From positions 35,058 through 99,057 of the forward strand of contig NZZG01000186.1 of the NCBI GenBank assembly GCA_002698575.1: DNA of 64,000 nucleotides, given 5' to 3'. Shown here in pieces: positions 25,784 through 57,456 of this stretch. The translations under genes were made by a program, and so were the position numbers. The DNA is from Pimelobacter sp. Lineage in GTDB: Bacteria; Actinomycetota; Actinomycetes; Propionibacteriales; Nocardioidaceae. How positions within the stretch are numbered: position 1 is the stretch's first letter; the number at the start of each line of letters is the position of its first letter. The notes beneath the pieces are model-generated. The model was not told where the DNA came from and ran no database searches. It saw only the letters and a program-made list of their open reading frames with translations.

Positions 25784-26542
25784 TCAGGCCTCGAGCTGAC
25801 CGGAGACCTTGCCGACCTCGGGGGCGGCGGCGAGGTCCTCGGCGTGACCGTGACGGCGGTGCCGCCACCACTCCCACGCGAGCGGGATGACGGTGAAGAG
25901 CAGGATCGCGATGGTGACGTAGTCGATGTTCTCGCCGAGCCACGGAACCGCCTCGCCGAGGAAGTAGCCGAGCAGGGTGATGCTGGTGATCCAGAGCACC
26001 GCGCCGATGAGGCTCCACAGGAAGAAGCGACGTCGTTCCATCAGGGTCACGCCGGCCACCACGGTGATGTAGGTGCGCACGAAGGGGACGAACCGGCCGA
26101 TGACCAACGCCTTGTTGCCGTGCTTCTCGAAGAAGACCCCGGTCTGGTCGAAGTACTTCTTCTTCAGGATGCGACCGTCGCGCTGGTAGAGCGGTGGTCC
26201 CAGCTTGCGCCCGATCTCGTACCCCACGACGTTGCCGAGGAAGGCCGCGACCACCAGCGCGATCATCGCGAGCACGAGCTCGACGGGCTTGTTCTCGAGC
26301 CCGAACGTCGTGTAGCCGGTCTTGGTCCCACCGGCGATGAAGAGCCCCAGTGCGAACAGGAGCGTGTCGCCGGGGAGGAAGGGGAAGAAGAGCCCGCACT
26401 CCACGAAGACGATCGCGAGGGCCAAGTAGATGAACGCGCCGCCGAACTCCATCTGCAGGTAGGCGGGGTCGAGCCACTTGATGCCGAACAGCATGGGCTG
26501 GATGGTGTTCGGCAGGTCGGAGAACGCGGCCAGCAAGGTCAC
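25784..26542 (-). CDS. DedA-family membrane protein
   Basis: 252 residues. It contains the DedA/VTT core: FVECGLFFPFLPGDTLLFALGLFIAG, then GNVVGYEIGRKLGPPLYQR and the second reentrant motif VIGRFVPFVRTYITVVAGVTLM (the R-F-x-P-x-x-R signature), with four or five membrane segments and a His/Arg-rich C-terminal tail. DedA proteins recycle undecaprenyl phosphate or other lipids across the membrane and influence pH and antibiotic tolerance. The start is GTG 26542. It diverges from the trmH-like gene. Confidence 0.9.
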   Translation of the reverse strand: MTLLAAFSDLPNTIQPMLFGIKWLDPAYLQMEFGGAFIYLALAIVFVECGLFFPFLPGDTLLFALGLFIAGGTKTGYTTFGLENKPVELVLAMIALVVAAFLGNVVGYEIGRKLGPPLYQRDGRILKKKYFDQTGVFFEKHGNKALVIGRFVPFVRTYITVVAGVTLMERRRFFLWSLIGAVLWITSITLLGYFLGEAVPWLGENIDYVTIAILLFTVIPLAWEWWRHRRHGHAEDLAAAPEVGKVSGQLEA

Positions 26543-35775: not shown

Positions 35776-36519
35776 TCAGGTCACGCCCGGGTCGGCCGCG
35801 GGCGGGTCCTCAGGTGCGCGCGCGGGTGTGTCCCGCCGGGCCGCGGTGCGGGCGCGCTCACGGCGTACGACGACCACCCCGCAGGCGAGCCCCAGCACCG
35901 AGACCGCCGCGCCCACGGCCAGCGCCACCAGGGCCAGCGACCCGTCGGCGGTGACGGCCGCGTCGCCCAGGGCCGTGTAGGCGAACGCTCGCGGCGCGGA
36001 TCCGACGACCGTGCCCAGCGCGATCGCGGGGACGCCGATCCCGATGGCGCCGAAGAGGTAGGAGAACGGCGAGTCGGGGATCCCCGGGATCCACCGCTGG
36101 AGCACGACCACCAGGAACCCGCGACGCCGGGCGAGCGAGATCAGCGCCGTGGCTCGCTCGCCCGCCACGGCCTCGACGGGTCGCTGGCCCAGCCGGCGGC
36201 TGAGCAGGGTCGAGAGCACCGCCGACAGGGTCGCACTGCACGTGGTGACGACGAAGCCGGTCCCGGTGCCGAACAGTGCTCCGCTGACCCCGGCGAGCAG
36301 CGGCCCGGGCACGAAGATCATCCCGAGGAGGGCACCTGCCCCCACGTAGGCCACCGGCGCCACCGGCCCGAGCGGCTCGATGGTCGCGGCGATGCCGTCG
36401 CGCGAGAGCGGCAGGACCAGCAGGGTGACGAGCGCGACAGACGTCAGGGCGGCGGAGAGACCCCCGAGACGCAGCCAGGCACGTCGGACGACGTCGGGCT
36501 CGTGCGCGGGGGCTGCCAC
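35776..36519 (-). CDS. TVP38/TMEM64 (VTT-domain) membrane protein
   Basis: 247 residues, five or six hydrophobic segments. The VTT domain shows FVPGPLLAGVSGALFGTGTGF (first reentrant segment) and QRWIPGIPDSPFSYLFGAIGIG (second, the R/W-x-P-G-x-P type). Such proteins are thought to scramble or transport lipids. GTG 36519 is chosen, with GGTGG just upstream; an in-frame ATG exists further up, but the added stretch is Arg/Pro-rich and unlike the family. A second VTT protein lies at 52539-53222 in a transporter operon. Context here is unhelpful: a peptidase gene downstream and a small DUF2945-like gene upstream. Confidence 0.83.
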   Translation of the reverse strand: MAAPAHEPDVVRRAWLRLGGLSAALTSVALVTLLVLPLSRDGIAATIEPLGPVAPVAYVGAGALLGMIFVPGPLLAGVSGALFGTGTGFVVTTCSATLSAVLSTLLSRRLGQRPVEAVAGERATALISLARRRGFLVVVLQRWIPGIPDSPFSYLFGAIGIGVPAIALGTVVGSAPRAFAYTALGDAAVTADGSLALVALAVGAAVSVLGLACGVVVVRRERARTAARRDTPARAPEDPPAADPGVT

Positions 36520-41793: not shown

Positions 41794-44182
<2,389 letters not shown>

Positions 44183-44209
44183 GCGTCGCGTCCGGGTGGC
44201 TGCGGGCGC

Positions 44210-44276
44210 AGGAATCCCCGGTCCACCGGGGATTCCTGACGTTCCTGGGCGTTGCAACGGCCAGGAACGTCAGGAA
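44210..44276 (+). promoter_or_regulatory. Two overlapping perfect inverted repeats between purA and purD
   Basis: Hairpin 1: AGGAATCCCCGGT (44210-44222) with ACCGGGGATTCCT (44225-44237). Hairpin 2: TTCCTGACGTTCCTGG (44233-44248) with CCAGGAACGTCAGGAA (44261-44276), whose loop contains the palindrome CGTTGCAACG. They share 44233-44237, so full pairing of both is impossible. The region ends 14 bases before TAGGCT, the probable purD -10. It may terminate purA transcription, attenuate read-through into purD, or bind a regulator. Confidence 0.65.
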
Positions 44277-44303
44277 AACCCCCGGAAGTTAGGCTCACCC
44301 CCC

Positions 44304-45557
44304 GTGAAGACCCTCGTCATCGGCACCGGCGGCCGCGAGCACGCCCTGGCCCGCGCCCTGTCCCTGGACCCTGCGGTCAGCGAGGTGCACGCGGCTCCCG
44401 GAAACCCCGGCATCGCCGCCGTCGCGACCCTGCACCACGTCGACCCCCTCGACGGCTCGGCCGTGGCCGACCTCGCTGAGCGGCTGGGCGTGGGACTGGT
44501 CGTGGTCGGTCCCGAGGCGCCGCTGGTGGCCGGCGTCGCCGACGTCGTCGCGGCCCGCGGGATCCCGGTCTTCGGACCGAGCGGCGAGGCTGCGCAGCTG
44601 GAGGGGTCGAAGACGTTCGCCAAGGACGTGATGGCGGCGGCCGGTGTGCCGACCGCGCGCGCCCACACCTGCACGACGCCCGAGGAGGCGGCGGCTGCGC
44701 TCGACGAGTTCGGGCCGACGTACGTCGTCAAGGACGACGGGCTCGCCGCCGGCAAGGGGGTCGTGGTCACCGACGACCGCGCCGAGGCACTGGCTCACGC
44801 GGCGGCGTGCGAGCGAGTGGTGATCGAGGAGTTCCTCGACGGCCCCGAGGTCTCGCTCTTCGCGATCACCGACGGGACGACCGTCCACCCCCTGCAGCCG
44901 GCGCAGGACTTCAAGCGGATCTTCGACGGCGACGCCGGTCCCAACACCGGTGGCATGGGGGCCTACACGCCGCTCCCGTGGGCGCCGGCGGACCTGGTCG
45001 ACGAGGTGCTGCGCGACGTGCTCCAGCCGACCGTGGACGAGATGGCGCGCCGCGGCACCCCGTTCGCCGGACTCCTGTACGCCGGCCTCGCGCTGACCTC
45101 GCGCGGCACCCGCGTCATCGAGTTCAACGCCCGCTTCGGCGACCCCGAGACCCAGCCGCTGATGGCGCTGCTCGACTCACCGCTCTCGCCCCTGCTGCTC
45201 GGTGCGGCGACGGGCCGGCTGGCCGACGTCGAGCCGCCCCGATGGAAGTCCGGGGCAGCGGTCGCGGTCGTGGTGGCCAGCGCCGGCTACCCCGAGTCCT
45301 CCTCGAAGGGCGACGTGATCTCCGGGGTCGAGGCCGCCGAGGCGCTGCCCGGCGTCCACGTCATCCACGCCGGCACGGCGCTCGGCGGTCCGGCCGGTGA
45401 CGACCTCGTCACCGCCGGCGGCCGCGTCCTGGCCGTGATCGCGACCGGCGAGGACATCGCCGGTGCGCGCGCCTCGGCGTACGACGGCGTGAACGCGATC
45501 GCCTTCGAGGGGGCTCAGCACCGCTCCGACATCGCCCTCCACTCGTCCACCGTGTAG
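44304..45557 (+). CDS. purD: Phosphoribosylamine--glycine ligase
   Basis: 417 residues. ATP-grasp enzyme of purine synthesis that makes GAR. Motifs: VIGTGGREHALARALS at the N-terminus, VVGPEAPLVAGVAD, YVVKDDGLAAGKGVVV, GPNTGGMGAYTP and VIEFNARFGDPETQ. TAGGCT (44290-44295) ends eight bases before GTG 44304, so the mRNA is probably leaderless. Next is a hairpin (45586-45632), then purB. Confidence 0.97.
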   Translation: MKTLVIGTGGREHALARALSLDPAVSEVHAAPGNPGIAAVATLHHVDPLDGSAVADLAERLGVGLVVVGPEAPLVAGVADVVAARGIPVFGPSGEAAQLEGSKTFAKDVMAAAGVPTARAHTCTTPEEAAAALDEFGPTYVVKDDGLAAGKGVVVTDDRAEALAHAAACERVVIEEFLDGPEVSLFAITDGTTVHPLQPAQDFKRIFDGDAGPNTGGMGAYTPLPWAPADLVDEVLRDVLQPTVDEMARRGTPFAGLLYAGLALTSRGTRVIEFNARFGDPETQPLMALLDSPLSPLLLGAATGRLADVEPPRWKSGAAVAVVVASAGYPESSSKGDVISGVEAAEALPGVHVIHAGTALGGPAGDDLVTAGGRVLAVIATGEDIAGARASAYDGVNAIAFEGAQHRSDIALHSSTV

Positions 45558-45585
45558 GTCGCTCCGCCGGGCACAGCGACCCCAG

Positions 45586-45632
45586 GTGACGAAGTGGCCC
45601 CCGCGGACCACCATCCGGGGCCATTTCGTCAC
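45586..45632 (+). terminator. Hairpin between purD and purB
   Basis: GTGACGAAGTGGCCCC (45586-45601) pairs with GGGGCCATTTCGTCAC (45617-45632), 16-base arms with one G-T pair, 29 bases past the purD stop. It ends 17 bases before the likely purB -10. Confidence 0.68.
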
Positions 45633-45660
45633 TCACCGACATCCGCGGGACAATCGCGGC

Positions 45661-47088
45661 GTGACCGCTCCCAACGTCCCCAACGTGCTCGCCAGCCGCT
45701 ACGCCGGAGCCGACCTCGCCGAGATCTGGTCGCCCGAGCACAAGATCGTGCTCGAGCGGCATCTCTGGATCGCCGTGCTCAAGGCCCAGCGAGACCTCGG
45801 GATCGACGTGCCCGACGGCGTGGTGGAGGCCTACGAGTCCGTCGTCGACCAGGTCGACCTCGCCTCGATCGTCGCGCGCGAGCGGGTCACCCGGCACGAC
45901 GTGAAGGCGCGGATCGAGGAGTTCTCCGACCTCGCCGGCCACGAGCACATCCACAAGGGGATGACGAGTCGCGACCTCACCGAGAACGTCGAGCAGCTGC
46001 AGCTCAAGCAGTCCCTGGAGCTGCTGCGGGACCGAGCGGTGGCGACCCTGACCCGGCTGGCCCGGCTCGCCGCCGAGCACGAGACCACCGTGATGGCCGG
46101 GCGTTCCCACAACGTCGCCGCCCAGGCCACGACGCTGGGCAAACGGTTCGCCACGGCCGCCGACGAGCTGATGATCGGCGTCGAGCGGATCGAGCAGCTC
46201 CTGGCGCGCTACCCGCTGCGGGGGATCAAGGGCCCGATGGGCACCGCCCAGGACATGCTCGACCTCCTGGACGGCGACGAGTCCCGGCTCGCCGACCTCG
46301 AGCAGCGGGTCGCAGCCCACCTGGGGTTCGAGCGGGTGCTGACCAGCGTCGGCCAGGTCTATCCCCGCAGCCTCGACTTCGACGTGCTCTCGGCCGTGGT
46401 GCAGCTGGTGGCGGCTCCCTCCAACCTGGCCACCACGATCCGGCTGATGGCCGGCAACGAGATCGTCACCGAGGGCTTCAAGGCGGGCCAGGTCGGCTCC
46501 TCGGCGATGCCGCACAAGATGAACACCCGCTCCTGCGAGCGGGTCAACGGCCTCGCGGTCGTCACCCGCGGCTACCTCTCGATGGTCGGCGAGCTCGCCG
46601 GCGACCAGTGGAACGAGGGCGACGTCTCCTGCTCGGTCGTACGGCGGGTCGCGCTGCCGGACGCGTTCTTCGCCGCCGACGGGCTGTTCCAGACGTTCCT
46701 GACGGTGCTCGACGAGTTCGGCGCGTTCCCGGCCGTGATCCAGCGCGAGCTCGACCGCTACCTGCCCTACCTGGCGACCACGAAGGTCCTGATGAGCGCG
46801 GTGCGCAACGGCGTCGGCCGGGAGTCCGCCCACGAGGCGATCAAGGAGGCCGCCGTCGGCACCGCGCTGGCGATGCGCCAGGGCCAGGCCGAGAACGACG
46901 TCTTCGCCAAGCTGGCCGCCGACGCCCGCCTCGGGCTCACGCAGGACCAGCTGGCGGCCCTGGTCGCCGAGCCGATCGCGTTCACCGGCGCCGCGGTCGC
47001 GCAGACCCAGGCGGTGTGCCGCGCCGTGGCCGAGCTGGCCGAGCGCCACCCCGCGGCGGCGTCGTACACGCCGGGCGCGATCCTCTGA
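45661..47088 (+). CDS. purB: Adenylosuccinate lyase
   Basis: 475 residues. It removes fumarate from SAICAR and adenylosuccinate, serving two purine steps. It has the superfamily loop VGSSAMPHKMNTRSCERVNG (catalytic Ser), the His site in MAGRSHNVAAQATTLGKRF, and HEHIHKGMTSRDLTEN. GTG 45661 lies six bases after GACAAT, a weak -10. One base after its stop begins an ABM-fold membrane protein gene. Confidence 0.96.
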   Translation: MTAPNVPNVLASRYAGADLAEIWSPEHKIVLERHLWIAVLKAQRDLGIDVPDGVVEAYESVVDQVDLASIVARERVTRHDVKARIEEFSDLAGHEHIHKGMTSRDLTENVEQLQLKQSLELLRDRAVATLTRLARLAAEHETTVMAGRSHNVAAQATTLGKRFATAADELMIGVERIEQLLARYPLRGIKGPMGTAQDMLDLLDGDESRLADLEQRVAAHLGFERVLTSVGQVYPRSLDFDVLSAVVQLVAAPSNLATTIRLMAGNEIVTEGFKAGQVGSSAMPHKMNTRSCERVNGLAVVTRGYLSMVGELAGDQWNEGDVSCSVVRRVALPDAFFAADGLFQTFLTVLDEFGAFPAVIQRELDRYLPYLATTKVLMSAVRNGVGRESAHEAIKEAAVGTALAMRQGQAENDVFAKLAADARLGLTQDQLAALVAEPIAFTGAAVAQTQAVCRAVAELAERHPAAASYTPGAIL

Positions 47089-47089
47089 C

Positions 47090-47695
47090 ATGAGCGACCC
47101 CGTCACCGTCGCGATCACCCGCCAGCTCGAGCCCGGACACGAGGCCGAGATGATGAGCTGGCTCAACGCCGGCATCCACCTGGCCGAGCGTTTCCCCGGC
47201 TTCCTCGGAGCCGGGTGGGTGCGTCCCGAGGCGGGCTCGACGGAGTGGCACATGCTCTACCGCTTCGCCGACCACGACTCACTGCAGCAGTGGGAGCACT
47301 CCTCGCAACGCGCCTGGTGGCGGGCCTCGGCCTCGGGGCTCGGCGTGGTCGAGGCGCGGGTCGAGAAGCGGACCGGGATCGAGGGCTGGTTCGACGTCCC
47401 GCAGTCCACCCTGGTCGTCGAGGGCGCCGCCCCGGCGCCCGCCCCGCCGCCGCGCTGGAAGCAGGCCTGCACGATCTTCCTGGTGTTCTTCCCGCTCAGC
47501 GTGGCCGCCAACTGGCTGGGCGGTCAGCTGGTCGGCGACCTGTTCCTGCCGCTGCGGGTGCTGCTCACCGTGCTCGTGATGACGCCGGTGATGACCTACG
47601 TGGCCCTGCCCTGGATCACGCGCACGATGCAGTGGTGGCTGCAGGGCCAGCCCGCGCCGTGGCGTCGTGACCCGGAGGCGGCCTCCGCCTCGTAG
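47090..47695 (+). CDS. ABM-domain protein with C-terminal membrane helices
   Basis: 201 residues. The first ~100 form an antibiotic-biosynthesis-monooxygenase (dimeric ferredoxin-like) fold: VTVAITRQLEPGHEAEMMSWLNAGIHLAERFPGF, GWVRPEAGSTEWHMLYRF, LQQWEHSSQRAWW. A Pro/Ala linker (APAPAPPPRWK) leads to two membrane segments (ACTIFLVFFPLSVAANWLGG; LRVLLTVLVMTPVMTYVALPWI). The role is unknown. It starts one base after purB, so it is co-transcribed with it. Confidence 0.83.
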   Translation: MSDPVTVAITRQLEPGHEAEMMSWLNAGIHLAERFPGFLGAGWVRPEAGSTEWHMLYRFADHDSLQQWEHSSQRAWWRASASGLGVVEARVEKRTGIEGWFDVPQSTLVVEGAAPAPAPPPRWKQACTIFLVFFPLSVAANWLGGQLVGDLFLPLRVLLTVLVMTPVMTYVALPWITRTMQWWLQGQPAPWRRDPEAASAS

Positions 47696-47782: not shown

Positions 47783-48445
47783 ATGCTCGACGCGCCCGTA
47801 CGCCGTGCGCTGGGGCCGTCCCTCGACGCCGGCGCCGCGACGCTGCAGCGCCTCGGCCTCAGCGCCACGGGCCTGACGGTCGCCGGGTGGCTGGTCGGCG
47901 TCGGCGCGTGCGTCGCCGCCGCCACGGGCCACTGGCACCTGGCGCTGGTCGGGTGGCTGCTCAACCGCGTCCTGGACGGGCTCGACGGCCCGTTGGCCCG
48001 CCGTACCGGCGCCACCGACCTCGGTGGCTTCCTCGACATCGTCGCCGACTTCAGCATCTACGGCGGCTTCGTCGTGGCCGCCGCCATCGCCGAGCCGGAC
48101 GCGCGCGTGGCGTGCCTGGTGCTGCTGGGCACCTACTACCTGTCGGGCACCGCCTTCCTGGCGCTCTCCTCGGTGCTGGAGAAGCGCGACGAGGCCGAGC
48201 GCGCCGACTACTCCGACGGGCGCTCGCTCCTGTTCGTGGGGGGTCTGGCCGAGGGCACCGAGACCGTGCTCGCCTACGTGCTGATCTGCCTGCTGCCCGA
48301 GCACCTCGCACTGATCGCCTGGGTCTTCGCGGCCGCGGTCGCGATCACCGCCGTCCAGCGGATCGCGCTGGGCATCCACCTCCTGCGCACGCAGCCGTCC
48401 CACGGGTCGGGCCCGATCCCCACCCCCACCGAGGAGCACCGATGA
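47783..48445 (+). CDS. CDP-alcohol phosphatidyltransferase (YnjF-like)
   Basis: 220 residues, about six membrane segments. The family motif is complete: RVLDGLDGPLARRTGATDLGGFLDIVADF fits D-x2-D-G-x2-A-R-x7-8-G-x3-D-x3-D. It transfers a phosphatidyl or similar group from a CDP-alcohol to an unknown alcohol. ATG 47783 has GGAGG six bases upstream. Its stop overlaps the start of the binding-protein gene (ATGA). E. coli ynjF, of the same family, also sits with ynjBCD, so the association is conserved across phyla. Confidence 0.88.
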   Translation: MLDAPVRRALGPSLDAGAATLQRLGLSATGLTVAGWLVGVGACVAAATGHWHLALVGWLLNRVLDGLDGPLARRTGATDLGGFLDIVADFSIYGGFVVAAAIAEPDARVACLVLLGTYYLSGTAFLALSSVLEKRDEAERADYSDGRSLLFVGGLAEGTETVLAYVLICLLPEHLALIAWVFAAAVAITAVQRIALGIHLLRTQPSHGSGPIPTPTEEHR

Positions 48446-49695
48446 CCCGCCCCCTCCGCAGGCACCGCGCCGTCCTGACCGGTCTGGCGGGCGTCCTCGT
48501 CCTCGCCGGGTGCGGGGGCGGCGAGGACGCCACCGTCGCAGAGACCGCCCCGTCGTCGGACTGGGAGGCGGTGCTCGCCGAGGCCGACGGGCAGAGCGTC
48601 AACTGGTACATGTACGGCGGCGACGACACGCTGAACGCCTTCGTCGACGACGTGGTGACCCCTCGCCTGGCCGACCTCGGGGTGAGCCTCAACCAGGTGC
48701 GCATCGACGACACCGCCGAGGCCGTCAACAAGGTCCTCGGGGAGAAGCAGGCCGGGCGCACCGAGGGCGGCTCGGTCGACGCCATCTGGATCAACGGCGA
48801 GAACTTCGCCACCGGGGTCCAGGCCGACCTGTGGCGGTGCGGCTGGTCGCAGGACCTCCCCAACGCCCGGTACGTCGACCTCGACGCCCCCGAGGTCGCC
48901 ACCGACTTCGGCACGCCGGTCGACGGCTGCGAGGCCGCCTGGCAGCAGGCCAACTCGGCCCTGGTCTACGACTCCGCGGTGCTGGACGAGGACGACGTGG
49001 CGAGCGTGGACTCGCTCTTCGCCTGGGCCGAGGCCGACCCGGGCCGCCTCGCCTACCCCGCCCCGCCCGACTTCTTCGGGTCGATGGCCGTGCGCACGGT
49101 CCTCTACGACACGATCGGCGGCCCGGACAGCCTGCTCGACGGTGAGCCCGACCCGTCCTCGGCTGCGTTCACCGACGCCACGGCGGCGACGTTCGAGCGG
49201 CTCAACGAGATCGAGCCCAGCCTGTGGCGCGGGGGAGAGACCTACCCGCAGAGCCAGGACGACATCGAGAAGCTCTACTCCGACGGCGAGATCAGCGCGT
49301 TCTTCACCTACGGTCCCGGCGCCGTCGGCACCCAGGTCGCCGACGGCCTGTACCCCGACTCCACCCGGGAGGCGGTGCTCAGCGTCGGCAACATCTCCAA
49401 CGTCAGCTTCGTGACGATCCCCGCCAACGCCGCTCACCAGGCCGGCGCCCTCGTGCTCGCCAACGTCCTGCAGGAGCCGGAGGTGCAGCTCGCGCTGTTC
49501 GAGGCCAACGGCGTCTACCCGGCGATCGACGTGGCCAGCACCCCGACCGACGTGCAGGATGCCTTCGCCGCGGTCGAGACCAGCCCCTCGGTGCTGCCCC
49601 TGGACGAGCTGCTCGCCGACGCCCGCCCGGAGCTCGCCAGCGCCTACCTGGCCGCCATCGAGGACGGCTGGGTCGCCGAGGTCCAGCAGAAGTAG
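48442..49695 (+). CDS. ABC transporter substrate-binding lipoprotein, YnjB-like
   Basis: 417 residues. A lipoprotein signal peptide ends at LVLAGC (Cys at about residue 24). The mature protein has the YnjB hallmarks: GGSVDAIWINGENF, PGRLAYPAPPDFFGSMAVR, DGEISAFFTYGPGAVGTQVADG and ANAAHQAGALVLANVL. The E. coli counterpart has no established ligand. The gene overlaps the CDP-alcohol transferase by four bases and lies three bases before the permease gene, so all are made from one message. Confidence 0.9.
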   Translation: MTRPLRRHRAVLTGLAGVLVLAGCGGGEDATVAETAPSSDWEAVLAEADGQSVNWYMYGGDDTLNAFVDDVVTPRLADLGVSLNQVRIDDTAEAVNKVLGEKQAGRTEGGSVDAIWINGENFATGVQADLWRCGWSQDLPNARYVDLDAPEVATDFGTPVDGCEAAWQQANSALVYDSAVLDEDDVASVDSLFAWAEADPGRLAYPAPPDFFGSMAVRTVLYDTIGGPDSLLDGEPDPSSAAFTDATAATFERLNEIEPSLWRGGETYPQSQDDIEKLYSDGEISAFFTYGPGAVGTQVADGLYPDSTREAVLSVGNISNVSFVTIPANAAHQAGALVLANVLQEPEVQLALFEANGVYPAIDVASTPTDVQDAFAAVETSPSVLPLDELLADARPELASAYLAAIEDGWVAEVQQK

Positions 49696-49698
49696 CCG

Positions 49699-50616
49699 AT
49701 GAGCCAGTCCGTGGTCCCGACCGGACCCACGACGCGGCAGCACGCCGTACGTCGTGGGGTGCCGGAGCGCCTGCGGCCCCTCCTCCTGCTGAGCCCGGCC
49801 CTCGTGGTGGTCGGGGTCTTCTTCGTGGGCGGCGTGGCCCAGGCGGTGCTGCAGAGCCTGGGCCGCCAGCCGTTCCTGGGCGAGACGGACTGGTCGGTCG
49901 AGGCCTACCGCGCCACGTTCGCCGACCCGGCCTTCCGCGCCTCGCTCACGCTCACCCTGCGTGTCGTGGTCCTGTCCACCGGCCTGGCGACCGTGCTCGG
50001 CGTCGCCGTCGCCCTGCTCGTACGGCGCCACGCGCGCGGACCGCTGACGACCCTGCTCCAGAGCACCCTGGCCGTGCCACACCTGGTGGGGGCGCTCTGC
50101 ATCGGCCTGCTCCTCTCGCCCTCGGGGTTCGTGTCCCGGCTGGGCGCCGGCGCCGGGCTGGTCGACGGGCCGCAGGACTTCTGGGTGCTGACCAACGACG
50201 CGTTCGGCTGGGGGATCATCGCGGAGTACACGTGGAAGGAGGCGCCCTTCGTCGCGGTCGTCGCCCTCGCGGCCATGACGCCGCACGTGCGCGACCTCGA
50301 GGCGGCCGCCCGCGTCCTGGGTGCCGGTCGCTGGCGTCGTCTCACCACGGTGACGCTCCCGCTGATCGCGCCACCGGTCGCGGCCGCGTCGGTGCTGGTC
50401 GCCTCCTTCGCCGCGGCGTCCTACGAGGTGCCGCGCCTGCTCGGGCAGAGCTTCCCCGCGACCCTGCCCGTCGTGGCGCTGCAGCGCTACCAGGACACCG
50501 ACCTGCTCGTGCGCCCCCAGGCGATGGCGGTCGCGACGATCATCGCGGTGCTGAGCCTGACGCTCGTGGCCGCCTACCTGACGCTCGTCTCGCGACTGTC
50601 GCGGAGGTCGCTGTGA
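49699..50616 (+). CDS. ABC transporter permease 1 (YnjC N-half-like)
   Basis: 305 residues, about six membrane helices. The ATPase-contact EAA loop reads LEAAARVLGAGRWRRLTTVTLPLI, placing it in the binding-protein-dependent (spermidine/thiamine/iron type) permease family. E. coli YnjC is a single double-length permease; here the two halves are separate genes. It overlaps the next permease by four bases. Confidence 0.9.
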   Translation: MSQSVVPTGPTTRQHAVRRGVPERLRPLLLLSPALVVVGVFFVGGVAQAVLQSLGRQPFLGETDWSVEAYRATFADPAFRASLTLTLRVVVLSTGLATVLGVAVALLVRRHARGPLTTLLQSTLAVPHLVGALCIGLLLSPSGFVSRLGAGAGLVDGPQDFWVLTNDAFGWGIIAEYTWKEAPFVAVVALAAMTPHVRDLEAAARVLGAGRWRRLTTVTLPLIAPPVAAASVLVASFAAASYEVPRLLGQSFPATLPVVALQRYQDTDLLVRPQAMAVATIIAVLSLTLVAAYLTLVSRLSRRSL

Positions 50617-51452
50617 GGGGCCGGACGTCGCTGCCCGGGCTCTCGGGGCTCGGGTCCCCACGGGGCCTTCGTGCCACGACCACCGTGGTCGTGGTCGCCG
50701 CCGTGCTGCTGCCGCTCGTCCCGCTGCTGGTGTGGAGCGTGGCCGGCACGTGGCGCTACCCCGACGTGGTCCCGGGCCGGTTCACCCGCCGCGGCCTCGA
50801 CCTGGTGCTCGACGGCGAGGTGGTCGCCGCGACCGCGACGTCGTTGCTGATCGCGGTGACGGTGGCGGTGCTGGCCTGCGCGATCGGGCTCTCGGCCGGG
50901 CGCGCGATCGGGCTCTACCGCTTCCGGGGACGACGACTCGTGCAGTTCCTGCTGCTGGCCCCGGTCATCGTCCCGGGGCTCGCCGTGACGCTCGGGATCC
51001 AGGTCTTCTTCGTGCGCTACGGCCTCGCGGACACGGTGCTCGGCGTCGTGCTCGTCCAGCTGATGCCGACCGTGCCCTACGCCGCCACGCTGCTGGGAGC
51101 GGCGTACGCCAACCTCGACGTCGACTACGAGCGGCAGGCCCGCACGTTGGGGTCGGGGCCGTGGCGGACCTTCCTCACCGTGACCGTGCCGCTGCTGCGT
51201 CCGGCGCTGGTGACGACCGCCCTGCTGACCTTCCTGATCTCCTGGAGCGAGTACGTCCTGACCCTGCTCATCGGTGGAGGACAGGTGACCACGCTGCCGC
51301 TGCTGCTCTTCGCCGCGATCGGGTCCTCGGACCGTACGGCGGCCGCCGCTCTCGGTCTCCTGGTGGTCCTGCCACCCGTCGTCATCGTGCTCCTCGTCGC
51401 CCGGCGGCTGCGCGGTCGCGACGACGCGTGGATGGGGCTGGCCCGTGGCTGA
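50613..51452 (+). CDS. ABC transporter permease 2 (YnjC C-half-like)
   Basis: 279 residues, about six membrane helices, with EAA loop YERQARTLGSGPWRTFLTVTVPLLRP. It forms a heterodimer with the preceding permease. GTG 50613 overlaps the upstream stop, and its own stop lies inside the ATPase gene (eight-base overlap). Confidence 0.9.
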   Translation: MRGRTSLPGLSGLGSPRGLRATTTVVVVAAVLLPLVPLLVWSVAGTWRYPDVVPGRFTRRGLDLVLDGEVVAATATSLLIAVTVAVLACAIGLSAGRAIGLYRFRGRRLVQFLLLAPVIVPGLAVTLGIQVFFVRYGLADTVLGVVLVQLMPTVPYAATLLGAAYANLDVDYERQARTLGSGPWRTFLTVTVPLLRPALVTTALLTFLISWSEYVLTLLIGGGQVTTLPLLLFAAIGSSDRTAAAALGLLVVLPPVVIVLLVARRLRGRDDAWMGLARG

Positions 51453-52542
51453 TCCCACCCTCGCGGCGCGTCTCGACGTCGACGGCCTGGGCGCGCGCTT
51501 CGGCGACGTCACCGCCGTTGCCGACCTCGACCTGAGCCTCGAGCCGGGCTCCTTCACCGCCCTGCTGGGGCCCTCGGGCTGCGGCAAGTCGACGACGCTC
51601 GCCATGGTGGCCGGCCTGCTCACGCCCACGGCGGGCGACGTCCGGCTGGACGGCGCGTCCTTGCTGGGGGTGCCGGCCGAGCGGCGCCCGGTGTCGCTGG
51701 TCTTCCAGAAACCCCTGCTCTTCCCGCACCTCAGCGTCGAGCAGAACGTCGCCTACGGCCTGCTCGCCCGAGGTCGCCCGCGGGTGCGCCGGCGCACCGG
51801 GGCCCTCACGGGGGCGGCCTCGCGCCAGGAGGTCGTCACCCAGGTCGAGGAGATGCTCGAGCGGGTCCGCCTCGGCGGACTGGGACGCCGGCGGGTCGGC
51901 GAGCTCTCGGGCGGTCAGGAGCAGCGGGTCGCCCTGGCCCGCGCGCTCGTCCTCCGGCCACGTCTCCTGCTCCTCGACGAGCCCTTCTCCCAGCTCGACG
52001 CCGACCTGCGTGCCGAGATGCGCACCCTGGTCCGAGAGCTCCACGACGAGGCGGACCTGACCACCCTGTTCGTCACCCACGACCAGGACGAGGCGGTCGA
52101 GCTCGCCGACACGATCGTGCTGATGCTGGACGGTCGGTTGGCCGGGGCCGGTGCGCCGGAGGCGTTCTACACCTCGCCGCCCTCCGTGGCCGCGGCCCGG
52201 TTCTTCGGCGCCACCAACGAGGTGGCCGGGACCGTCGTCCACGGGCACTTCCGTGGCCCGGGTCCCCTCGAGCCCGCGCTGAGGCTGCCGACGACGGCGC
52301 CGGAGGGGCCCGCCGTGCTCGTCGTGCGTCCGGAGGCCGTGGGGCTCGGCGGCGACGTCCCGGCGCTCGTCACCGCGACCCGTTTCGCCGGCTCGGACGT
52401 GCTGGTCGACACCACGTTGCCGGACGGCCAGTGCCTGCGGGTCCGGGTGCCGCTGGGCACCCGCGTCGCCGTCGGCGACCGGGTGCTGCTGGCGCTCGAC
52501 ACGGAGCGCTGCACCGTATTCGCCCAGGAGGCCCTCCGGTGA
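51445..52542 (+). CDS. ABC transporter ATPase (YnjD-like)
   Basis: 365 residues. Walker A is LLGPSGCGKSTT (near residue 40), the Q-loop VFQKPLLFPHLS, signature LSGGQEQRVALARAL, Walker B LLLLDEPFSQLD and switch FVTHDQDEAVELAD, all intact. An insertion of about 20 Arg/Gly-rich residues lies between the Q-loop and signature (RGRPRVRRRTGALTG). The C-terminal ~110 residues form a TOBE-like domain (VLVVRPEAVGLGG). It starts with GTG 51445. Confidence 0.93.
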   Translation: MADPTLAARLDVDGLGARFGDVTAVADLDLSLEPGSFTALLGPSGCGKSTTLAMVAGLLTPTAGDVRLDGASLLGVPAERRPVSLVFQKPLLFPHLSVEQNVAYGLLARGRPRVRRRTGALTGAASRQEVVTQVEEMLERVRLGGLGRRRVGELSGGQEQRVALARALVLRPRLLLLDEPFSQLDADLRAEMRTLVRELHDEADLTTLFVTHDQDEAVELADTIVLMLDGRLAGAGAPEAFYTSPPSVAAARFFGATNEVAGTVVHGHFRGPGPLEPALRLPTTAPEGPAVLVVRPEAVGLGGDVPALVTATRFAGSDVLVDTTLPDGQCLRVRVPLGTRVAVGDRVLLALDTERCTVFAQEALR

Positions 52543-53222
52543 AGCGCTCGACGTACCTCAAGGCCGGCATCTTCGTCCTGCTCATCGTCACCGCGGTCGT
52601 GGTGCAGGTCTCGATCGGGCTGCCGAGTCGCGCGGAGCTGCAGTCGGTGCTCGACGGGTTGGGGGCGATCGCCGTCCCCGTCTTCATCCTCGCCTACATC
52701 GGCGCGTCGCTGCTGCCGATCGGCCCCAGCGCCGTGCTGACCATCGTGGGCGGTGCCCTGCTGGGCTTCGCGGTCGCGTTCGCCTCCGTGCTGGTCGCGG
52801 CCGTGATCGGCTCGACGATCGGGTTCCTGATCAGCCGCAGCCTCGGCCGCGAGGCGGTCCAAGGGCTGAGCAACGAGCGCGTGCGCGACCTGGACGCCCG
52901 GGTCAGCGCGCACGGCTTCGGTGCGGTGCTGCTGGCGCGGATGGTGCCGCTGATCCCGTTCACCACGTCGAACTACGCCTTCGGGCTCACCTCGATCCCG
53001 CTGACGCCCTACGTGCTGGGCACGGCGCTGGGGATCGTCCCCGGCACGGCGGTCTACGTCGCGGTCGGGGCGTACGGCGCGGAGCCGACCTCCCCGCCGT
53101 TCCTGATCGCGATCGGGGCACTGGTGCTGCTCACCGTGGTCGGGCTGATGCGCTCGCGACGGGAGGGACGTGCGGCCCGTGGCGGGGGCTCGCACGCCGA
53201 CGCGGACGGCGGGCCCAGGTGA
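52539..53222 (+). CDS. TVP38/TMEM64 (VTT-domain) membrane protein, YdjX/YdjZ-like
   Basis: 227 residues, five or six hydrophobic segments. The reentrant motifs are ASLLPIGPSAVLTIVGGALLG and LARMVPLIPFTTSNYAFGLTSIPL (R-x-V-P-x-x-P-F). YdjX and YdjZ of E. coli belong to this family and are encoded beside ynjABCDEF, matching this operon. GTG 52539 overlaps the ATPase stop. Its own stop abuts the repeat element at 53224-53296, opposite the convergent flavoprotein gene. Confidence 0.88.
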   Translation: MKRSTYLKAGIFVLLIVTAVVVQVSIGLPSRAELQSVLDGLGAIAVPVFILAYIGASLLPIGPSAVLTIVGGALLGFAVAFASVLVAAVIGSTIGFLISRSLGREAVQGLSNERVRDLDARVSAHGFGAVLLARMVPLIPFTTSNYAFGLTSIPLTPYVLGTALGIVPGTAVYVAVGAYGAEPTSPPFLIAIGALVLLTVVGLMRSRREGRAARGGGSHADADGGPR

Positions 53223-53223
53223 C

Positions 53224-53296
53224 GAAACTCCCGCTTCTTGTACGAAGTTTCTTAGCAGAAGCGGGAGTTTCTCCGCTGAAGCGGTGAAACTCCCGC
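53224..53296. repeat. Three-box palindromic intergenic element, copy 2
   Basis: Box 1 GAAACTCCCGCTTC (53224-53237) pairs perfectly with box 2 GAAGCGGGAGTTTC (53258-53271). Box 2 also pairs through GCGGGAGTTTC with box 3 GAAACTCCCGC (53286-53296), and an inner CCGCT/AGCGG stem extends it. It is the inverted-orientation homologue of 38485-38556. It lies between two convergent operons, where a bidirectional terminator would be expected. Confidence 0.72.
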
Positions 53297-53303
53297 CCGC
53301 CCG

Positions 53304-54794
53304 TCAGCGCGAGACCCACCACCGCCGGGCGCGGGCGAGTGCCGTGGTGACCTGCTTGGTCGGGGTGGCCGCGAGGTCGGCCCGACCCTGGGCCAGGGAG
53401 GCCTTCCAGATACCGTCGGACCACGTCGGGTAGGCGTGGATCGCTCCGGCCATCGCCCGGCCCTTGAGGCCCTGCTGCCCGGCGAGCAGCGCCTCGGCCA
53501 ACGACTCGCCGGCGCGCGGGCCGACGATGGAGGCGCCGACGACGCGACCCTTCTGGTCGAGGACCAGCTGGGAGTAGCCGTGGGTGCGGCCCTCGGCGAC
53601 GGCACGGTCGACCTCGGAGTGCGGCACCGTGTGCACGCGCAGTCCCGGGCGGGAGTCGGCCGCGATGCCGAAGGAGGCGACCTCGGGCGAGGTGTAGGTG
53701 ACCCGTGGGATGACGTCGGGCCGCACCGTGCGCCTCAGGCCCAGGACGGCGTTGCTCGCCGCCAGGCTGCCGTGGTTGCCGGCCGTGTGGGTGAAGGGGG
53801 CGTACCCGGTCAGGTCTCCGGCCGCCCAGATCCGGGGGTTGGTGGTGCGCAGCCGCTGGTCCACCTCGATGTGGCCGGAGTCGGTGAGCGCGACCCCGGC
53901 CGCGGCGAGCCCGAGGGACGACGTGCGCGGGCTGCGACCGACCGCCACGAGGACCTGGTCGACCTCGACCTCGGAGCCGTCGTCGAGCAGCGCCACGCGG
54001 CGCCCGTCGCGACCGGTGTCGACGGAGGTGAGCCTGACCCCCGTCCGTACGTCGATCCCGTCGTCGCGGAAGGTGCGGGCGAGGATGTCCGCGGCGGGCG
54101 GGGCCTCACCGGGGATCAACCGCTCGGCCGCCTCGACGATGGTCACCGAGGAGCCGAGTCTCGCGAAGGCCTGCCCGAGCTCGCAGCCGATCGGACCGCC
54201 GCCGAGCACGAGGAGCCGGCGGGGGAGCTCGGTCAGGGACCACACGGAGTCGGAGGTGAGGGGCGCGGCGTCGGCGAGGCCGGGCAGGTCGGGCACCACC
54301 GGGGAGGAGCCCGTGGCCACGAGCGCCTGGGTGAAGGTGACGCGCTCGCCGTCGACCGTCGCCGACGTGGGACCCGTGAAGACCACGGTGCCCTGGGCGA
54401 CCGAGGCGCCGGCGGCGCGGATCGCTGCGGGGGAATCGACCGGCTCGATGGTGGTGATCGAGGCGCGCACGTGCTCCATCACGGCCTCGAAGTCCACCGA
54501 CACCGAGTCGACGTGGACGCCCAGGGAGGCCGCGGCCCGGGCATCGCCGGCGGCGTGCGCGGCGGCGAGCAGCGCCTTGCTCGGCACGCAACCGGTCCAC
54601 AGGCAGTCGCCGCCGGTGCGCTCGCGCTCGACGAGGAGGGTGGTGGCACCGAACCCGGCCGCGGTGTGGGCCGCCACGAGGCCGGCCGTGCCGCCGCCGA
54701 CGATCAGGAGGTCCCACGGCCGCGAGTCGGGGGCGGTCAGGGAGTCGGAGGACCACGCGGCTGCGGCGTGCGCCGTCCCGCCGGGCGTGCTCAT
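53304..54794 (-). CDS. FAD-dependent pyridine nucleotide-disulphide oxidoreductase (mercuric-reductase-like)
   Basis: 496 residues. FAD-binding LLIVGGGTAGLVAAHTAA, redox-active disulphide GGDCLWTGCVPSKALL (Cys-x4-Cys), NAD(P)-binding LVLGGGPIGCELGQAFARLG, and the second FAD site PRIWAAGDLTGYAPFTHTA are present. The C-terminal interface has AIHAYPTWSDG, the site of the H-x-Y-P-T partner His. The substrate is unknown. Related flavoproteins are fused to VTT domains in other bacteria, so the convergent TVP38-like gene is a meaningful neighbour. Its ATG overlaps the anti-sigma stop (ATGA), so it is coupled to the sigma operon. Confidence 0.88.
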   Translation of the reverse strand: MSTPGGTAHAAAAWSSDSLTAPDSRPWDLLIVGGGTAGLVAAHTAAGFGATTLLVERERTGGDCLWTGCVPSKALLAAAHAAGDARAAASLGVHVDSVSVDFEAVMEHVRASITTIEPVDSPAAIRAAGASVAQGTVVFTGPTSATVDGERVTFTQALVATGSSPVVPDLPGLADAAPLTSDSVWSLTELPRRLLVLGGGPIGCELGQAFARLGSSVTIVEAAERLIPGEAPPAADILARTFRDDGIDVRTGVRLTSVDTGRDGRRVALLDDGSEVEVDQVLVAVGRSPRTSSLGLAAAGVALTDSGHIEVDQRLRTTNPRIWAAGDLTGYAPFTHTAGNHGSLAASNAVLGLRRTVRPDVIPRVTYTSPEVASFGIAADSRPGLRVHTVPHSEVDRAVAEGRTHGYSQLVLDQKGRVVGASIVGPRAGESLAEALLAGQQGLKGRAMAGAIHAYPTWSDGIWKASLAQGRADLAATPTKQVTTALARARRWWVSR

Positions 54795-55054
54795 GCCGTC
54801 CCCGGACCGCGCAGCTGCGCGGCCATGGCGTCGAGGCGCTCGAGCGAGGCCGGGTCGGTGATCCGGCGCGCGTCGAGGTCGCGCAGGGCCTCACGCAGCC
54901 GGCGTCGCTCGGCCAGGTCGCCGGCACAGCGTCGGCACGTGGCGGCATGGCGCTCGACCCGACGTACGTCGGCGCTGCTCAGCACCGCGGACGGGTCGCC
55001 GTCGAGGTAGCGGTCGAGGCGTCGCGACGCCCACCAGCAGGTCGTCAGGTTCAT
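54791..55054 (-). CDS. Zinc-binding anti-sigma factor
   Basis: 87 residues. The ZAS motif is H-x3-C-x2-C: VERHAATCRRCAGDL (about residues 35-49), with CW near the N-terminus. No membrane segment, so it is a soluble anti-sigma factor like RsrA/RshA that could release its sigma partner on thiol oxidation; the sensing is inferred from the Cys/His cluster. The start overlaps the sigma stop by four bases, and the 3' end overlaps the flavoprotein gene. Confidence 0.87.
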   Translation of the reverse strand: MNLTTCWWASRRLDRYLDGDPSAVLSSADVRRVERHAATCRRCAGDLAERRRLREALRDLDARRITDPASLERLDAMAAQLRGPGTA

Positions 55055-55779
55055 CGCTTCTCCTCCTGGTCGTGACCCGGTCGGTGACCGGCACCCTCGG
55101 TGGTCGCTCCCGGGCGGTCGCGCGCGGCGCGTCGGGACCGTGGACGCCGTGACCGCAACGACTTGCGCAGGCGCGTGCGTCCTCGGCTCAGGCGCGACAT
55201 CACCGTCCCGACCGGTACGTCGAGCAGCTCGGCGGCCTCGGCGTAGGTGAGGCCGTTGACGTCGACCAGGAGCACGACGGTCCGGAAGCGGGGGTCGAGG
55301 GCCTGCAGCGCGACCTCGATGTCGCCGTCGAGCAGGCGCTCGTCGAGGACGTCCTCGGGAGAGACGACGCTGGCCCGCCCGAACGCGGGGCGACGGCGTT
55401 CGAGGGAGGCATCCTCCACGAGGTCGGGTCGGGTCCGGCGCAGGCTGTTCAGGTGCGTGCGACGCAGGATCGTCAGCAGCCACGCACGCGGGTGCCGGCC
55501 GTCGAAGCCGTCGATCGCACGGTAGGCGCGGATCAGGGTGTCCTGGACGACGTCCTCGGCGTCCGCCCACGAGCCGGTCAGGCTGTGGGCGACGCGCAGC
55601 AGCACCTCGATCTCGGGCTCGACCCACTGGGCGAAGCGGACATCGCCGGTCTCCGAGACCGACCGTGCGGCGCCGAGGTCCAGGTCGTCGCGAGCGTCGA
55701 GGGCATCCACGACGGGGTAACCCGGTGGCGCGCCCCGACCCTTCCCCTGGTCGCCCGGGTTCATCTCCTCGACGGACAT
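55051..55779 (-). CDS. ECF RNA polymerase sigma factor
   Basis: 242 residues. Region 2 reads HSLTGSWADAEDVVQDTLIRAYRAIDGFDGRHPRAWLLTILRRTHLNSLRR (about 60-115). Region 4 is LDPRFRTVVLLVDVNGLTYAEAAELLDVPVGTVMSRLSRGRTRLRK (about 155-205). The N-terminal ~50 residues are unrelated to the fold, and the C-terminus is Arg-rich. It is encoded with a zinc anti-sigma factor and a flavoprotein, a typical layout for oxidative or envelope stress control. Ten bases separate it from the HIT-like gene upstream. Confidence 0.92.
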   Translation of the reverse strand: MSVEEMNPGDQGKGRGAPPGYPVVDALDARDDLDLGAARSVSETGDVRFAQWVEPEIEVLLRVAHSLTGSWADAEDVVQDTLIRAYRAIDGFDGRHPRAWLLTILRRTHLNSLRRTRPDLVEDASLERRRPAFGRASVVSPEDVLDERLLDGDIEVALQALDPRFRTVVLLVDVNGLTYAEAAELLDVPVGTVMSRLSRGRTRLRKSLRSRRPRSRRAARDRPGATTEGAGHRPGHDQEEKR

Positions 55780-56523: not shown

Positions 56524-57456
56524 GTGCTCAACATCCCCGCAGCCCCCGCCCTCGACGGTGCCCGGCACCTGCACTCCGGCAAGGTGCGCGACCTGTACGA
56601 GGTCGTCGAGGGCCCCCAGGCAGGCCACCTGCTGATGGTCGCGAGCGACCGGATCTCGATCTTCGACTTCGTGCTCGACACCACGATCCCCGACAAGGGC
56701 GAGATCCTGACGCGGATGTCGCTGTGGTGGTTCGAGCAGCTGCGCGACCTGGTGCCCAGCCACGTGGTGTCCACCGACGTGCCCGAGGACGTCCGCGGCC
56801 GCGCCGTCATCTGCGAGCGCCTCGACATGTACCCCGTCGAGTGCGTGGCGCGCGGCTACCTGACCGGGTCGGGGCTCCTCGACTACCGCGCCACCGGCGA
56901 GGTGTGCGGCATCGCGCTGCCGCCCGACCTGGTGGACGGAAGCCGTCTCCCGGAGCCGATCTTCACACCGGCCACCAAGGCCGATCTCGGCGACCACGAC
57001 GAGAACGTCTCCTACGCCGCGGTGGAGTCCACCGTCGGTGCCGACCACGCGGCCGCCCTGCGCGAGCTCACGCTGCAGGTCTACGCGCGGGCCGAGCAGG
57101 TCGCCCGCGAGCAGGGGATCATCCTGGCCGACACCAAGCTCGAGTTCGGCCGCAGGCCCGCGGGGGGTGCCGCCGACGCCCCCGACGGCGGGACCGGCGG
57201 GACCGGCGGGATCGTGCTGGGTGACGAGGTGCTCACCCCCGACTCGTCGCGGTTCTGGCCGGCCGAGGACTGGGTGCCCGGCCGTGCACAGGCCTCCTAC
57301 GACAAGCAGATCGTGCGCGACTGGGCGTTGTCGGCGTCGTCCGGGTGGGACCGATCCTCCGGCGAGGCGCCCCCGCCGCTCCCGGAGGAGGTCATCGACC
57401 TCACCCGGGCCCGCTACCTCGAGGCCTACGAGCTGTTGACGGGCGAGAGCTGGTGA
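56524..57456 (+). CDS. purC: SAICAR synthetase
   Basis: 310 residues. It joins aspartate to CAIR in purine synthesis. Motifs: HSGKVRDLYEV, VASDRISIFDFVLDTTIPDKG, VECVARGYLTGSG, GIILADTKLEFG and DSSRFWPAEDW. A Gly/Asp-rich low-complexity insertion (about residues 220-236) is unusual. TAGACT (56512-56517) ends six bases before GTG 56524. The SRPBCC gene overlaps its stop. Confidence 0.96.
   Translation: MLNIPAAPALDGARHLHSGKVRDLYEVVEGPQAGHLLMVASDRISIFDFVLDTTIPDKGEILTRMSLWWFEQLRDLVPSHVVSTDVPEDVRGRAVICERLDMYPVECVARGYLTGSGLLDYRATGEVCGIALPPDLVDGSRLPEPIFTPATKADLGDHDENVSYAAVESTVGADHAAALRELTLQVYARAEQVAREQGIILADTKLEFGRRPAGGAADAPDGGTGGTGGIVLGDEVLTPDSSRFWPAEDWVPGRAQASYDKQIVRDWALSASSGWDRSSGEAPPPLPEEVIDLTRARYLEAYELLTGESW

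Follow-up and report, generated by a model that had tools for sequence, protein, structure and literature searches.

Cross-phylum association of a YnjB-type importer with a CDP-alcohol phosphotransferase, a VTT membrane protein and an FAD disulfide reductase: a candidate redox-linked lipid pathway

In Escherichia coli K-12, the genes ydjXYZ-ynjABCDE, with ynjF on the opposite strand, bring together the YnjB solute-binding protein, the permease and ATPase of an ATP-binding cassette (ABC) importer, two VTT (TVP38/TMEM64/DedA-type) membrane proteins and a cytidine diphosphate (CDP)-alcohol transferase. The genes ydjXYZ-ynjABCD and ynjE appear in an FNR regulon table, with ynjE directly activated (PMC3688515), ynjA and ynjB were up 1.6 fold and 1.4 fold, respectively, in a BaeR experiment (PMC2731931), and YdjX and YdjZ are described as closest to human TMEM41B (PMC7818093). 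The passages of open-access literature returned by our searches describe no function for YnjBCD or YnjF, in agreement with the initial annotation of the DNA studied here; those of PMC9207381, PMC13131330 and PMC9405208 hold no ynj function, and those of PMC3032703 are unrelated. Here we describe an actinobacterial counterpart in a 64,000-nucleotide stretch of a Pimelobacter sp. draft genome of 86% completeness (assembly GCA_002698575.1, contig NZZG01000186.1, forward-strand positions 35,058 to 99,057; hereafter the window).

Positions 47783-53222 of the window encode on the + strand, as the initial annotation had proposed and as coordinates and Pfam/NCBIfam matches bear out, six genes of the transferase, YnjB, permease, ATPase and VTT families. 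That E. coli keeps the same families together is confirmed by the K-12 layout and by the matches of YnjF (40% over 207 amino acids), YnjB (35% over 344) and YdjX (33% over 149) to the window proteins. The window differs in having two permease genes instead of the fused YnjC, an ATPase with a TOBE domain, one VTT gene instead of two, the transferase gene in first position, and a facing operon for a flavin adenine dinucleotide (FAD) disulfide reductase, an extracytoplasmic function (ECF) sigma factor and an anti-sigma factor. Profile searches of positions 40001-62000 matched no counterpart of YdjY, YnjA or YnjE, and the window locus is thus a variant of the E. coli ydj-ynj locus and not the same locus; its component families are known, and their assembly with the reductase and the ECF pair makes the variant. 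The initial annotation had overlooked this redox half, which any explanation must cover. The same families also meet on a plasmid of Falsirhodobacter algicola (L203), where the transferase, YnjB, permease and ATPase genes form one run, the permeases are fused, and VTT and FAD oxidoreductase are joined in a 715-residue protein beside them, whereas the window has separate VTT and reductase genes on opposite strands. A Klebsiella pneumoniae plasmid (NZ_CP098171.1, L200) bears an entire astB-to-topoisomerase III block, including two VTT genes, the importer, a sulfurtransferase and a CDP-alcohol transferase.

The association of the YnjB importer with the transferase, the VTT protein and the reductase is strongly supported as real and cross-phylum. 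Loci were sampled from YnjB relatives in the phylum and family of the window, plus the best 80 of 577 confirmed relatives from a contig search with an alignment that included E. coli YnjB. Removal of five near-duplicates (L066, L073, L085, L112 and L179) from 138 loci left 133, the window and E. coli among them, and the 84 with at least 7 kb either side of ynjB formed the linkage set. Within 7 kb of ynjB, the transferase was found in 51/84, the VTT gene in 48/84, the reductase in 50/84 and all three in 42/84, while 0/22 control loci held any of them anywhere in about 18 kb; these controls were weaker, paralogous binding-protein matches, 20 from the family of the window plus L118 and L119, mostly from genomes without YnjB. 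The 66 non-alphaproteobacterial loci with full flanks account for nearly all of the linkage (transferase 50, VTT 48, reductase 50), the 18 alphaproteobacterial ones for a single transferase and no VTT or reductase gene. The association spans Actinomycetota, Bacillota, Chloroflexota and Pseudomonadota, with 31 gene orders among the 59 loci holding all three partners, some of which differ merely by extra or missing pieces. All seven genes lie on one strand in Chengkuizengella (L155, L158), a Chloroflexota genome (L156) and Metabacillus. On a Deinococcus plasmid, a lysophospholipid-acyltransferase-like gene overlaps ynjB with FAD oxidoreductases close by, and profile search found no transferase or VTT gene at that locus.

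The importer and the transferase subfamily are coupled also without linkage. In the family of the window, YnjB scored over its cut-off in 27 of 341 genomes, and the transferase subfamily, counted at E 1e-20 and always at least 251 bits, in the identical 27. Among the 218 genomes of the family of Salipiger pallidus (G736), which we take to be Rhodobacteraceae, YnjB occurs in 82 and the transferase in 87 (71 with both, 11 with YnjB only, 16 with the transferase only, 120 with neither), i.e., the transferase is present in 71/82 genomes with YnjB vs 16/136 without; the odds ratio, which ignores kinship, is 48 overall and 15 without the linked genomes. The two genes lie within 5 kb of each other in 49 of the 71 genomes and are unlinked in 22. 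The wider phylum sample, comprising all 35 YnjB genomes besides our own and 45 of the 360 genomes without YnjB, gave the transferase (at least 180 bits) in 20/35 vs 0/45, with a top score of 119 in the latter. Moreover, among 21 named genomes with no transferase in the ynjB locus that was fetched, 17 have one at another place (at least 179 bits). The cross-phylum association claimed by the initial annotation therefore stands, in four phyla, in many gene orders and, for importer and transferase, without linkage; the gene-neighbourhood analysis it called for has been run, and the genes proved linked in other phyla too.

Our view that the two convergent operons constitute one redox-regulated pathway, which would import a small alcohol and build a phospholipid from it, stands at about even chances. 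YnjB would bind, and the permeases and ATPase, an importer by family, would take up, a small, polar alcohol that perhaps bears an amine. The transferase, with its catalytic motif in place, would then move phosphatidyl from CDP-diacylglycerol onto the alcohol or a derivative, and transport of this lipid, or of an intermediate, across the membrane may fall to the VTT protein. The reductase, which is fused to a VTT protein in one relative, could keep a thiol of the substrate, the lipid or the VTT partner reduced. Redox state may set the demand, as many actinobacteria encode an ECF sigma factor and an HxxxCxxC anti-sigma factor together with the reductase and the E. coli operon is reportedly FNR-regulated. 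Of the single pathway put forward by the initial annotation, the association is observed, and alcohol import, attachment to lipid and lipid movement fit it as presumed steps.

The window transferase has the complete catalytic motif D-x2-D-G-x2-A-R-x(n)-G-x3-D-x3-D, with all eight residues, which are conserved in 44/44 aligned sequences save Arg73 (43/44). Its nearest relatives of solved structure include synthases of phosphatidylinositol phosphate (PIP) and archaetidylinositol phosphate, which provide the closest NCBIfam models (NF040950, 45.7 vs a cut-off of 180 bits; NF045883, 23.6 vs 170 bits); it falls under all curated cut-offs and passes none of the NCBIfam models of phosphatidylserine, phosphatidylcholine and PIP synthases. 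In MtPIPS, a PIP synthase, inositol phosphate is reported to be bound at its phosphate by R155 and R195 (PMC4634129). Counting along the structure-match alignment, these residues correspond to T161 and R193 of the window protein, and position 161 is T in 39/44, G in 4/44 and A in 1/44 sequences, never R. Since the R155 equivalent is replaced in all 44, inositol 1-phosphate is an unlikely acceptor by this residue comparison. The identity of the protein as a PIP or archaetidylinositol-phosphate synthase was rejected on the same replacement and on the scores under both cut-offs.

These data also bear on two other uses of the transferase. The imported compound could be a polyol converted to a soluble phosphodiester, as by di-myo-inositol phosphate phosphate (DIPP) synthase, with the VTT protein and the reductase acting elsewhere. 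The best solved-structure match of the transferase, a CDP-inositol/inositol-phosphate phosphotransferase (61 bits) that ranks before PIP synthases, favors such a product; we nevertheless regard it as very unlikely given the replaced arginine, the VTT and acyltransferase partners, which suggest a lipid, and the fact that we noticed no cytidylyltransferase, either fused to it or next to it. Alternatively, the importer could recover freed head groups or glycerophosphodiesters, which the transferase would return to ordinary phospholipids, with no new lipid involved. This salvage is rather improbable, as the transferase subfamily is set apart from the phosphatidylserine, phosphatidylcholine and PIP synthase models and no phosphodiesterase family is prominent among the recurrent neighbor clusters that were annotated, a part of the total.

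A clue to the chemistry of the proposed alcohol-to-lipid pathway comes from loci without the transferase. A choline-kinase-like kinase is present in 16/133 loci and the transferase in 76/133, and both together in 0/133. Foldseek placed LicA and choline/ethanolamine kinases first for the kinase, and in VIA-align choline/ethanolamine kinases tied with other kinases of the aminoglycoside phosphotransferase (APH) fold. Its frequent place beside the importer where the transferase is missing suggests that the same hydroxyl is phosphorylated there. Together with the loss of one inositol-phosphate arginine, the kinase sharpens the chain of reactions suggested by the initial annotation. In one actinobacterial family, f18, which includes Rubrobacter records, ynjB is immediately preceded by a nucleoside-hydrolase-like gene, in most cases alongside the choline-kinase-like kinase (L088, L090, L093, L094, L096, L097, L099, L100 and L101); this neighbor could narrow the YnjB ligand.

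The window YnjB is the sole YnjB-like match in the draft genome, and the lipobox cysteine, Cys24, is present in 56/58 YnjB sequences. Polyamine-binding proteins (PotF/SpuD) ranked first in Foldseek and were absent from the 50 rows of VIA-align. A review table pairs a polyamine binding protein of Streptomyces with YnjB as its homologue, which is an annotation and not a test (PMC9397018).

The CxxxxC motif of the reductase occurs in 70/70 loci and His453 in 67/70; the fold family, the CxxxxC motif and the C-terminal His are shared with mercuric reductase (MerA) and dihydrolipoamide dehydrogenase, and the window protein scores under both cut-offs. In 24/70 reductase-bearing loci, a member of the same ECF sigma family as in the window is encoded directly upstream of the reductase on the same strand, and the window's ECF sigma factor found a match at E 1e-20 in 21/26 fetched loci of its family. 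The anti-sigma factor resembles the zinc-finger (ZAS) type in its HxxxCxxC motif and adjoining ECF sigma gene. Two Salipiger-family genomes (G830, G788) have the reductase and transferase genes abutting each other, with YnjB at another site. MerA carries a C-terminal cysteine pair. The window reductase has only Cys64, Cys69 and Cys204, and MerA identity was rejected on the missing further cysteines and on TIGR02053 (346.6 vs a cut-off of 454.45 bits). With MerA identity rejected, mercury, arsenic or selenium handling was also dismissed as the main role; the literature searched held nothing linking arsenosugar with TVP38, and the seleno- or tellurite-type NCBIfam neighbors of YnjA and YnjE scored under their cut-offs. 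The window VTT protein had no NCBIfam match at E 0.001 and does not reach the cut-off of NF052604, the model of the undecaprenyl-phosphate transporter UptA.

The same features could instead belong to an envelope thiol or oxidant stress module, in which the reductase and the VTT protein form the core and reduce a disulfide, an oxidized lipid or a sulfur or selenium compound, while the importer and transferase supply or repair lipid. The invariant CxxxxC, the VTT-reductase fusion, the sigma/anti-sigma pair, the FNR link, the AhpD-like YnjA and rhodanese YnjE of E. coli, and msrA and msrB near the Metabacillus locus all agree with such a module. We hold it to be unlikely: the importer is coupled most tightly to the transferase, no such reductase was found in the E. 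coli stretch, and the extra MerA-type cysteines are absent from the window protein.

Several observations weigh against the single import-and-lipid pathway. None of the three partners is held by 12/66 non-alphaproteobacterial loci or, within 7 kb, by 17/18 alphaproteobacterial ones. The latter would suit an ordinary uptake operon whose neighbors reflect chance or pure inheritance, as would the fact that our counts ignore kinship; 31 gene orders, several phyla, the unlinked co-occurrence and 0/22 controls have largely refuted this explanation, and we give it almost no weight. Coupling is also incomplete, with 11/82 YnjB genomes of the Salipiger family without the transferase and 16/136 others having it, and p-values are overstated because the genomes are related. 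The reductase family is nearly universal in the Salipiger family (216/218 genomes), which makes co-occurrence uninformative in that family, and no reductase was found in the 19 kb E. coli K-12 stretch fetched. Two of the four proteobacterial genomes with the kinase also carry the transferase. One phosphate-binding arginine is retained, as position 193 keeps R in 43/44 sequences, and R occurs at position 158 in 5/44. The structural matches of YnjB include binders of sugar, glycerophosphocholine and dinucleotide with tied or nearly tied Z scores.

We tentatively hypothesize that the import-and-lipid pathway makes an unrecognised phospholipid class in several phyla, E. coli included, with a head group that is scavenged by a dedicated importer, YnjBCD, rather than synthesized by the cell, and attached by a dedicated transferase, YnjF, the making of the lipid being tied to redox state through a reductase acting with a VTT lipid mover; we find this possible rather than probable. 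In E. coli, the best-studied bacterium, the ynj genes are still without explanation, and since the importer and the transferase subfamily come and go together even when unlinked, separate orphans become one testable pathway. This narrows the hypothesis to the redox-linked conversion of an imported alcohol to lipid, and gives the VTT family a bacterial pathway context that could reveal a substrate. The importer/transferase co-occurrence should be surprising to the specialist and is directly testable.

In the window (Table 1), the genes of the + operon, described as overlapping in the initial annotation, do so by 4 or 8 bases at four of the five junctions (48442-48445, 50613-50616, 51445-51452 and 52539-52542), while YnjB and permease A are 3 bp apart. 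The ECF sigma, anti-sigma and reductase genes of the facing operon (55779-53304) also overlap one another. The segment 53220-53305 folds with -36.1 kcal/mol (z -5.07; 0/200 shuffles equally good), and the inverted repeat between the operons was not among the calls of a terminator scan. A sigma-70 promoter scan found no promoter.

Table 1. Features of the two convergent operons in the window (47783-55779); start codons were chosen by the analyst.
Feature	Position	Strand	Support
CDP-alcohol phosphotransferase, YnjF subfamily, EGTET motif	47783..48445	+	Pfam CDP-OH_P_transf 35 bits (cut-off 22)
YnjB-family solute-binding lipoprotein, LAGC lipobox at Cys24	48442..49695	+	NF008633 405.3 bits (cut-off 203)
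ABC permease A	49699..50616	+	Pfam BPD_transp_1
ABC permease B	50613..51452	+	Pfam BPD_transp_1
ABC ATPase, C-terminal TOBE domain	51445..52542	+	Pfam ABC_tran + TOBE_2
VTT (TVP38/TMEM64/DedA-type) membrane protein	52539..53222	+	Pfam VTT_dom 87.8 bits (cut-off 33.9)
Inverted repeat, terminator-like, between convergent operons	53223..53303	.	folding
FAD disulfide reductase (MerA / dihydrolipoamide dehydrogenase-like), CxxxxC = Cys64, Cys69	53304..54794	-	Pyr_redox_2 + Pyr_redox_dim
Zinc-finger anti-sigma factor, HxxxCxxC	54791..55054	-	zf-HC2 23.1 bits (cut-off 22.2)
ECF sigma factor	55051..55779	-	Sigma70_r2 + Sigma70_r4_2

Eleven further neighbor families were compared with the 22 control loci, with uncorrected p-values. 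A moderate excess was found for radical S-adenosylmethionine (SAM) proteins (17/84, p 0.013), a methyltransferase (15/84, p 0.023), anti-sigma factors (21/84, p 0.004) and ECF sigma factors (29/84 vs 3/22, p 0.046), and a weak one for the kinase near ynjB (11/84 vs 0/22, p 0.067). YdjM-like, nucleoside hydrolase, DUF3179, AhpD, Crp/Fnr and SelL-like families showed no marked excess over the controls (p 0.14 to 0.64). The window set yielded no radical SAM protein, methyltransferase or kinase, and we regard these three as optional partners; a radical SAM search of the draft genome itself gave no match, which is weak evidence of absence. The radical-SAM-like protein encoded beside YnjB in actinobacteria (L072:9784-11199 and 25 other loci) has CxxxCxxC in 26/26, falls short of Pfam's gathering threshold in three tested cases, and weakly resembles TrsS and tetraether lipid synthase in NCBIfam. 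AhpD-like genes (cf. E. coli ynjA), without significance against the controls, lie near actinobacterial loci L064, L067, L070, L074, L140, L144 and L150.

The whole block sits between purB and purC, within a purine cluster of purA, purD and purB before it (42887-47088) and purC after it (56524-57456); matches to purA, purD and purB flank the YnjB locus in 6/26 other fetched loci of the family. Directly before the operon, 47090-47695 encodes an antibiotic-biosynthesis-monooxygenase-like protein with a hydrophobic C-terminal part, relatives of which share the neighborhood in a few close loci. Two more VTT-domain genes lie on the - strand of the window (about 25964-26377 and 35962-36312), in positions unrelated to the locus. 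The same genome also has a second CDP-alcohol transferase and VTT gene pair on the + strand (L226, G000:C82, 7236-7850 and about 7850-8320), which tblastn at E 0.01 did not match to the window pair and which is flanked by genes resembling proA and nadD by eye.

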